Assembly: GCF_017916325.1 (NCBI RefSeq)
Contig: NC_090164.1
Coordinates: 283,001 to 347,000, forward strand
Direction of reading: 5' to 3'
Source: Leishmania martiniquensis
Taxonomy: Eukaryota > Euglenozoa > Kinetoplastea > Trypanosomatida > Trypanosomatidae
DNA length: 64,000 nt
Positions 25,994 through 28,479 of this stretch are shown one piece after another. The first letter of the stretch is position 1; each line of letters starts with the position of its first letter. A program made the position numbers and the translations under genes. Below the pieces are notes generated by a model. The model worked only from the letters and a program-made list of their open reading frames with translations. It was not told where the DNA came from and made no database searches.

Positions 25994-28479
25994 GCCACAG
26001 ACACTCCCAGATGGCAACTCAATTTTGCTATCATTTCGGAAAAGTTGAGGCGATGGAGAGAAGGAAAACGGTTTACCCCCGCCTCAAAGCGGGACGCGAA
26101 CCACCTAACAGACCTTCAGATCAAAGAGCAGCAGTGTGTTAGGAAATCGAGATGCGCCCCAAAGCACCTCACCTTCCCCACCCCTGCCCACCCACAGACA
26201 CCCCGGCAAGGAGGCGCAGATCGCCACACCCCTCTTGTCCACGTGGCGCCGCGACTGCGCCATGGCACCAAAAGCCGAACCGCCGCCAGACCAACCGAGC
26301 CGTGCACCCAGCGGGCCGCTTTCCTTCCCACCCACCCCCGCCTCATCCTCGCACGCGCGCTGCGCGCTCAGAGCCGGACGGGTCTCGGCGAAACGCGTGC
26401 CTCGGTCCAAGTGCACAGCACACATGGCGCCGCACGAGGGCAAAGGCGGCCGCACCCGTTAGGCAGCGAACGGCAACGACCCACGAGCGGGAAAGATAAA
26501 CCCCAGCGAGGCTGCTGCCAGGCCCCCGCCAAGACGCTCGCAGCCTCGCAGCCTTTCCGGCGCACCATGCTTTCCCACGCTGCCCGTAGCCGCGGCGTCC
26601 CACAATGTTGTGCGCCGGCCCCCCAAAGGGCGGTTTGGCGGAGACGATCGTGAAAGCCGCGGCGTTCTCGCCACGCTTCCGGCGCCGGCGCCGCGTTCGC
26701 TCGCCCGGCAGGGGGCGAGACCCCACACCCCGCACACGCGCACTTTCGGGCAGTTTCGCGAGCCTATGCACGCCCCTTTCCACCACCACCGCAACCCCCC
26801 TGCTCTCCGCCGGCTGCCCTGTTCGGATGCGATGCGCCGTTTCGGCTGCGCTTCAAGGTGCGTGCGCGCGGCGCCCGCACTTGCAAACCACGGCGGAGCC
26901 GCTTCCGCCTCCACGCGGTCGCTGGCGTAGGTGGCGCCCTCCGCCTTCGCCCCGCCCCCCCCCCCTTTGGCAGCCGTCGCGGTGGCGCGCCTGGGCGTCT
27001 TGCCGCGGCCGCCTTGTGGCGCCCTGTCCGCCGCAGCGCCCACGGGCAACAGGAAGCACGAGCCACGCACCCTTAGCCCACACGCCACCGGCGCCCTGCG
27101 CTTCCCCCGGGGGCCGCGCGACGCAAGCGGCAGCCCAAGGCATCGGCGATCGCATGCTCGGCTCGGAGGAAACATGGTGTATCCGGCGACCGCGCCCCCC
27201 TGGCATTGGGCAACGCCAGCCCAGACGCGCCCGGCGCAGCCTGCTGTAGACCCCCGCGTGGTGCACGGCGGGGCTCGGGATGTCGGCCTGGCGCCGGCAA
27301 GGGCAGCCGTGTCTGCGAGTCATGCGGCTCGCGCCCGCTTTGCCAGCGCGTCACCCCCACCAAGGGCCTTGTGGACAACCACCGATTGCAAAGTCGGTGG
27401 CAGACGCGCGCGTCAGCATCAGGGCGGCGGGGCTTGCGCTGCGCGCCTAGAAGGGGGGGCGCCAATGCCGGCGCGCCGTCTGCGTTCCCTTGGCGGGGGC
27501 ACTCCGCCGGCCGCCGCCCATCGGGTGGCGTGCGCGCAAAGAGCCCCCAGGTGGCAAGCCCCATCGCGCCCGCACGGGGTCCCCAAACGCGCCCTGGCGG
27601 CGCCATCGTCCCGCGTGTACGTGCGGTGGCACCTTTCGGCTGGCTCCCCCCCGGGGCGCACGGCAGCAGGGCCCGTATGACGCCGCCTGCGGTGGGTGCT
27701 GCGGGTGTGAGGCCAGCGGTGCGGATGGCGTGGCGCGGCCGGGGTGTCTTGCTGGGGTCCGTGCGGGGCGGTGCGCCACAACGGCGGGGTGGGCGCCCGG
27801 CGGGTCTGTGTGGGGCTCTGGGCGTGGGCCGCGCCTTCCCGGGCTTCCTGAAAAAGCGGGTGCGGGCGCGACGGGCGTCTGGTAAATCCGTCGCCCAGCG
27901 AGTGGGAGAGCCGCCCGCCTTCGGCCTCTCTAGTGCGGGGCCTTCTGCCTACCCGGGGCGCGTCGACCCCCCCGGCAGGCGCTGCTGCCACCGTTCTGCC
28001 TGGCCGGCGCTGGGCTTCCGCATGGGGAAGGAAGTCGGCGGCCTCCAAAGCGGGGCGTTGGCGGTGGGGCTATGCGGCTGTGGCGGGCACGTGCTTTCCA
28101 CATCGTCGCGCAGCGGGTGCGAGGCCCTTCGCCCGAGCAGCATGCAAAGGTGGCTTGGCAGCATCGCCGGGCGGGGGCGGGCGCCAAATGACTTGTCGAC
28201 TGCTGCCCGCGCCTCGCTGCCAATGCGCCGGCCTTCTTTCTCCGCCTTGGGGGCGGCGGCCGCCCTGTCCCGTTTCCTGCGCGCGTGGTCTGCGGTATTG
28301 GGGGCGGGCCGGGGGGTGTTTCGGGGCCGTGCCCTTTTCTCAGGGCCTGCTCTTCGGATAGCTGGCGTGAACCGACCCGGGAGGGAGGGCGGTGATCAGG
28401 CGATGCGGAGGGTACTTTTCCAGGAACTGCCGCCCGTCGGGTATCTGAAATGGATCGCGTAGGCGGTTAGTAAATGAAA
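25994..28479 (+). repeat. 2.49 kb GC-rich element, left copy of inverted repeat
   Basis: These 2486 bp are the near-exact reverse complement of 48560-51042. Base-by-base comparison puts the boundaries at gccacagacactcccag (25994) and ...ttagtaaatgaaa (28479); the flanks diverge immediately outside. I noticed two substitutions (T26322 versus G in the same sense; G27820 versus A) and an 11 versus 8 C-run at 26955-26965. Within the element the plus strand is C-rich to about 27.2 kb and G-rich after about 27.6 kb. Long open frames occur on both strands (one of 418 codons at 27206-28462), but they encode Arg/Gly/Pro/Ala-rich low-complexity sequence expected from composition alone. I read it as non-coding. 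It interrupts the minus-strand array between two genes. Confidence 0.95.

Follow-up and report, generated by a model that had tools for sequence, protein, structure and literature searches.

A nearly identical inverted copy of a strand-switch core within a one-direction gene array of a Leishmania chromosome

Gene organization around the two copies

The window is the whole stretch of DNA analysed, 64,000 nucleotides at C29:283001-347000, and its gene content matches L. major chromosome 29. It contains two copies of a GC-rich core, a left copy (L) and a right copy (R), among the following features.

24499..25413, minus strand: HMG-box/DEK_C gene of the TDP1 family (304 aa), the first gene on the far side of L
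25414..25993, minus strand: spacer from L to the HMG start codon (580 bp), with several polypyrimidine tracts and AG dinucleotides
25994..28479, plus strand: L, complete ectopic copy of the core (2,486 bp), with 71% GC and a change of skew at ~27250
30390..32303, minus strand: 637-aa ORF upstream of L, without a Pfam family; the gap 3' of this ORF contains L
34188..35552, minus strand: guanine deaminase, which with the HMG gene and SLC35F fixes the order of the 20-kb block relative to related species
44643..45224, minus strand: ARF-like GTPase gene, by name and place a candidate ortholog of LmjF.29.0880
46658..52653, no strand: divergent strand-switch region, extending over 5,996 bp from the limit of the last minus-strand ORF to that of the first plus-strand gene
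48560..51042, minus strand: R, the core of the divergent strand-switch region (2,483 bp), reverse-complementary to L and probably the donor copy
52654..54012, plus strand: SLC35F-type transporter, the first gene of the plus-strand unit

Gene polarity was examined over a 250-kb stretch (C29:150001-400000) with a codon-usage score, for which ten ORFs from the window that match a Pfam family served as the training set. We kept ORFs that were 100 aa or longer and scored 0.10 or higher; lower-scoring ORFs, including some of the training ORFs, were dropped before polarity was counted, which left 27 ORFs. All 20 kept ORFs to the left of R were on the minus strand and all seven to its right were on the plus strand. 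Between 180 and 222 kb of C29 there was no kept ORF, and the longest ORFs at 202-210 kb are on the minus strand. R is the only strand switch seen in the 250 kb, which bears out the first-pass annotation of the right copy as the centre of a true divergent strand-switch region. The last minus-strand ORF before the switch has a weak match to PhyH, below the Pfam cut-off. L has minus-strand genes on both sides, the HMG gene and the 637-aa ORF, and does not sit at a boundary of transcription units; the same annotation had placed it between two minus-strand genes, 20 kb from the right copy, and the spacing between the two copies is 20,080 bp.

The HMG protein shows 90% identity with its L. enriettii counterpart and 84-85% identity with those of L. 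major, L. donovani and L. panamensis (over 90-92% of its length), and these identities indicate that the host is a Leishmania close to the Mundinia group. The trans-splice signals of the HMG gene probably lie outside L, in the 580-bp spacer; since polypyrimidine tracts and AG dinucleotides are found there, between L and the gene, HMG processing is probably unaffected by L.

Copies of the core in the assembly

Alignment of L (25994-28479, plus strand) with R (48560-51042, minus strand) showed that they are inverted copies, 99.8% identical over 2,486 alignment columns, differing by two substitutions and one 3-bp difference in a C-run. Alignment outside the element ends showed that the flanks of L and R are unrelated beyond the copy limits, which are sharp. 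The left copy had been described beforehand as a duplicate of the right-hand strand-switch core, with limits that proved exact.

The core was then searched for in the whole assembly (32.31 Mb, 41 contigs; match counts are lower bounds). It was found in at least three places, L, R and a partial copy (T), those found all being on C29.

C29:201239-201986, same orientation as L and inverted relative to R: T, third copy, truncated and more diverged

T sits 107 kb further left than L, in the gap beside a minus-strand 603-aa ORF. It spans element positions 175-941 in the assembly search, and against R it shows 10 substitutions in 748 aligned bases and 19 gap columns. At the single L/R substitution that T covers, it carries the R base. 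Both ectopic copies, L and T, are inverted relative to R. The core is thus a low-copy inverted repeat, found in at least three places, all of those found on one chromosome. A duplicated strand-switch core is not described in the literature searched by title or start of abstract, a partial collection.

The very high identity of L and R might suggest that L is a false duplicate of R produced in assembly. Several Mundinia genomes were assembled from nanopore reads with short-read correction (PMC8421402), and the identity of L and R may be inflated by such correction, as used for Mundinia assemblies of this kind. However, L has its own flanks on both sides and sharp limits, two substitutions separate it from R, and the third copy, which differs from R at 10 of 748 bases, is evidence that copying of the core does occur. 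An artefact of assembly is therefore very unlikely.

Composition of the cores

Joint flips of G skew and T skew were scored at 4,952 positions over the 250 kb. R ranked first and L second, followed in third rank by a place ~300 bp beyond T. At distances above 3 kb from L and R, no position reached the flip strength of either. At R, both G skew and T skew change locally from negative to positive. The local G and T flip is also present at L, inherited with the copy. The identical internal C-to-G skew change that had been noticed in both copies therefore corresponds to the two strongest joint flips of the positions scored.

In 2-kb windows, both cores reach 73% GC, and the highest value elsewhere in the 250 kb is 66%. 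The GC content of the R core is 70-77%, and R is embedded in a GC-poor zone, with 0.50-0.54 in the four nearest 5-kb bins (core bin excluded) versus ~0.6 further out. Within the window, GC is ~0.50-0.54 at 37000-48500 and 52000-62000, over ~25 kb around the strand switch, and ~0.60 elsewhere; the divergent strand-switch region (dSSR) of chromosome 1 dips similarly.

Four G-quadruplexes (G4s) were predicted from motifs in the R region, two on the minus strand to the left and two on the plus strand to the right. Four were also predicted in the L region, two of them with no counterpart in the R list, a difference that probably comes from the C-run and one substitution.

L lacks the arms that flank R

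The G+T content was determined in 4,984 grid windows of 800 bp over the 250 kb, and two arms, one on either side of the R core, stood out.

47750..48559, minus strand: left arm of R, CA-rich on the plus strand (GT-rich on the coding strand); absent at L and with no second match in the assembly
51043..52050, plus strand: right arm of R, GT-rich on the coding strand; absent at L and with no second match in the assembly

The segment 51043-51842 contains 69.5% G+T (z = +6.0), above all 4,984 grid windows, and the segment 47760-48559 contains 36.5% G+T (z = -4.2), a value that only four grid windows equal or undercut; the grid window with the lowest G+T starts at 48001. The assembly search found no second match to either arm. 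At R, the composition bias and skew run past both copy limits into the arms, whereas at L they fade at the limits. The sequences flanking L are unremarkable (z = -0.9 and +1.6), but the inner ends of L are biased (z = -3.1 on the left and +2.9 on the right), values equalled or passed by 20 (left) and 44 (right) of the 4,984 windows, those of L and R included. L holds the second-lowest and the fourth-highest GT peaks of the 250-kb stretch. L is a core with its own bias and without the arms, and is not devoid of promoter-like bias.

R as the probable early origin and centromere region of chromosome 29

In L. major each chromosome is reported to replicate mainly from one strand-switch region, which on chromosome 29 is a region at ~0.4 Mb, and the qPCR markers of that study include LmjF.29.0810 and LmjF.29.0930 (PMC4612428). 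By number these two genes bracket the HMG/TDP1 gene, reported as LmjF.29.0850 (PMC5319819; PMC7920299), and the ARF-like gene, LmjF.29.0880, reported as an ADP-ribosylation factor-like protein (PMC9318571). R lies at 331.6-334.0 kb of C29, ~70 kb from the L. major origin figure, which is itself only 'about 0.4 Mb'. By gene identifiers, gene order and rough map position, R appears to be syntenic with the early-origin strand switch of L. major chromosome 29. A DNAscent study of 2025 also reports an early-replicating strand-switch region on L. major chromosome 29 and takes such regions as centromeres (PMC12890776).

Early-origin sites of L. major are reported to carry AcH3, base J and KKT1, with one early-replicating KKT1-binding site per chromosome, and to flip both G and T skew locally (PMC7511235). 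In the same report, AcH3 sites near chromosome ends show the same double flip in a weaker form, and chromosome-internal sites with AcH3 only flip T skew alone. The G4s of early-origin sites lie on the reverse strand to the left and on the forward strand to the right, and no sequence signature specific to replication initiation is reported to have been found in L. major (PMC7511235). The motifs predicted around R follow this strand layout. Origin-active strand-switch regions are reported to be longer (PMC4612428), and by ORF limits the region of R measures 5,996 bp versus 1,662 bp for the chromosome 1 dSSR.

Because the double G/T flip marks the early-replicating KKT1 sites of L. major, "origin/centromere-class core" is a better name for the copied piece than "promoter". 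We infer with moderate confidence, on the basis of its synteny and its class of skew, that R is the early replication origin/centromere region of chromosome 29. R resembles the early-replicating AcH3/base J/KKT1 regions of L. major in its apparent chromosome 29 synteny, its length, its G/T flip and its predicted G4 layout, but adds a core of 70-77% GC that was not seen at a chromosome 36 candidate described below. L differs from those regions in being a copy inside a transcription unit.

Two other loci were compared with R. Since the early site of L. major chromosome 1 is reported at a telomere (PMC7511235), the chromosome 1 dSSR can be used as a non-origin control; here it is without a GC core and without a G flip, and shows only an A-rich to T-rich change. 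A candidate on chromosome 36 (C36 ~1153700, near the position of the L. major chromosome 36 origin) has both the G and the T flip and no GC core in its readable part, 1,500 of its 7,000 bases being N; it came from sparse sampling of 60 short pieces and was picked after the values had been seen, and so lends weak support. A GC-rich core as a general origin mark was rejected, since it is lacking at the chromosome 1 dSSR and in the readable chromosome 36 candidate, and the very high GC of R is, with moderate confidence, a peculiarity of its locus. A pattern search for G/C runs in the whole assembly gave 1,696 forward matches and was uninformative.

Origin of the ectopic copies

R is the probable donor and L the copy, because the skew of R runs on into the arms and that of L fades at its limits, and because T shares the R base at one site. 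We favour, with a probability of about 0.58, the reading that L is a recent inverted copy of the R core; that R is an origin/centromere with Pol II starts in its arms; that the copy arose by template switching at a replication fork; and that L is mostly passive. According to this reading, as a fork moved out of the G4-bearing origin R, its nascent strand would have switched template, copied the 2.48-kb GC-rich core and rejoined 20 kb away, giving rise to L as an inverted, recent and one-way copy. Another template-switch event, probably an earlier one, would have left the truncated T 107 kb further on.

Template switching at forks, the most likely route, fits the finding that L and T are both inverted and lie on the same chromosome as R. 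Two inverted copies out of two would arise by chance in 1 in 4 cases and lend it weak support, and a single event may have produced both T and L. The nearest named process is origin-dependent inverted-repeat amplification (ODIRA), in which a whole segment is duplicated as an inverted repeat, unlike the present case, in which the core alone would have been pasted, 20 kb and 130 kb away. The likeness lies in template switching at forks, which is reported for ODIRA as the source of inverted copies (PMC10766183), and in that the copy here includes the presumed origin. Neither an adjoining target-site duplication nor a microhomology that would prove any route was found at L, R or T; a 5-mer is common to both ends of L within 20 bp, but does not adjoin the ends.

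We also considered an inversion of the 20-kb block by staggered breaks that duplicated the core. In Porcisia, the locus tags of the HMG gene (00591), guanine deaminase (00588) and SLC35F (00583) fit the order in the window, and so do those of the HMG gene (04141) and SLC35F (04150) in L. enriettii, which have one more number between them than in Porcisia. Since the tags of both species fit the present order, this inversion was rejected, with tags standing in for maps.

A coding role of the element was rejected as well, because none of the seven ORFs that lie in L or overlap it and reach 150 aa or more has a Pfam family. At a GC content this high, long ORFs are expected to arise by chance. The window contained no tRNA and, at gathering scores, no Rfam match.

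The core could instead be a mobile element, with R merely another of its insertions, as its three copies and the sharp difference in GC between R and its surroundings might suggest. Searches for the features of a transposable element (target-site duplication, terminal repeats and transposition genes) found none: no terminal inverted repeats were present among the 17 inverted pairs found, no target-site duplication adjoins the copies, and the seven long ORFs in or overlapping the core lack Pfam domains. Moreover, the copies found are confined to one chromosome, and the skew of R continues into arms that have no second match. We consider a mobile element extremely unlikely, and template switching from R remains the preferred origin of L.

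Transcription at L

According to the preferred reading, the main Pol II starts of R would be at the GT-rich arms that flank the core, and L would be read through from R as a gap or 3' UTR between two minus-strand genes. L alone would not initiate Pol II transcription as often as the promoter of a transcription unit does. Given its lack of arms and its position within actively transcribed DNA, L is most likely read through, with no starts at promoter rate, and is quite likely weak or silent as a start.

In T. brucei, GT-rich, direction-dependent elements on the coding strand are reported to drive Pol II and the deposition of H2A.Z, and the activity of inserted promoters is strongly site-dependent (PMC5579346). 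The R arms resemble these promoters in being GT-rich on the coding strand in both directions. L is unlike them in having no arms and retaining just the weaker bias found at the core ends; moreover, the T. brucei elements are synthetic and from another genus. PRO-seq of three prototype dSSRs of L. major showed one centre nearly free of polymerase, one in which the strands overlap and one with head-to-head starts (PMC11708010). In that study, antisense reads within polycistronic transcription units (PTUs) are very rare, and a centromere in a dSSR is without influence on polymerase density (PMC11708010).

The first-pass annotation had raised another possibility, that the core itself carries bidirectional Pol II initiation, so that L would boost transcription of the HMG gene and the genes beyond it and drive antisense RNA through the 20-kb block. 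L does contain the full core with its G and T flip, and its inner ends are strongly CA/GT-biased. Directional GT-rich elements inserted in T. brucei start Pol II and recruit H2A.Z (PMC5579346), and L. major is reported to have 38 internal AcH3 peaks without obvious features (PMC2679053). On the other hand, the most GT-rich arms were left behind, inserted promoters depend strongly on their site in T. brucei (PMC5579346), and in L. major PTU antisense is very rare and one of the three dSSR centres is nearly polymerase-free (PMC11708010). The region of L. mexicana chromosome 8 that is syntenic with the switch is reported as not origin-active (PMC4612428). Since the core is better placed in the origin class, the arms are excluded from the copy, the syntenic L. 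mexicana switch is not origin-active and promoter activity in T. brucei is site-dependent, L may act as an ectopic start but should not be presumed to do so, and initiation from the core with these consequences is unlikely, less likely than that annotation held. Its view of the locus as a natural test of whether sequence specifies initiation stands: the anatomy is as it described, and the experiment is a fair one.

Possible recombination between the copies and possible RNA from them

Leishmania repeats are reported to be generally low-copy and chromosome-specific; inverted repeats seed linear amplicons, and amplicon seeding by repeats occurs genome-wide (PMC4028189). L and R could be a working inverted-repeat pair of this kind, by which recombination flips the 20-kb block or seeds linear amplicons, so that L has been kept. 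The pair resembles the amplicon-seeding low-copy repeats (PMC4028189; PMC4256157) in having few copies on one chromosome and an inverted pair 20 kb apart, but the repeated DNA here is a strand-switch core, and amplicons from it would be putative. After a flip all genes would point away from a single core, an arrangement that would be coherent with polycistronic transcription. However, the present order fits the Porcisia and L. enriettii tags, with no fixed flip seen, the HMG side would be without a CA-rich arm after a flip, and the third copy is partial. A pair kept for recombination is therefore improbable.

It is equally improbable that the core alone suffices and that L is a second nucleus for replication, for a kinetochore or for bidirectional Pol II initiation, with the strand switch hopping by 20 kb when the block flips and with transcripts of L and R feeding small RNAs onto the core. 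Such hopping could occur because L and R are inverted repeats around a polarity-neutral block. When both are read from the minus strand, the transcripts of L and R are complementary.

Three frames of interest were found elsewhere in the assembly: one of 931 aa with PAZ and Piwi matches (C11:218297-220069), a second Piwi frame (C21:142092-143042) and one of 1,076 aa that matches RNase III (C20:336667-336936). These may hint that RNA interference is kept in this Leishmania, and since Piwi, PAZ and RNase III matches are present in the genome, double-stranded RNA from the L/R pair could matter.

It is still debated whether DNA sequence or inherited chromatin specifies the transcription starts, origins and centromeres of trypanosomatids. 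A single chromosome here carries the core three times: with arms at the switch (R), whole and armless in a gene array (L), and truncated in the array (T). Comparison of the three could, with no engineering, tell apart what the core, the arms and the location each contribute. The locus also suggests that dispersed copies can stem from the main-origin region of a Leishmania chromosome.

Other repeats in the window

The minus-strand block also contains a direct repeat of 489 bp (36181-36669 and 41864-42352), 98.8% identical, which was found in 20 places in the assembly; the other 18 are partial, at 68-88% identity, on C11, C20, C27, C28, C29, C30 and C36. This repeat may be a dispersed element. 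Two short overlapping duplications, one of 100 bp at 92% identity and one of 46 bp at 100%, were observed at 4655-4838 and 5695-5777 of the window.
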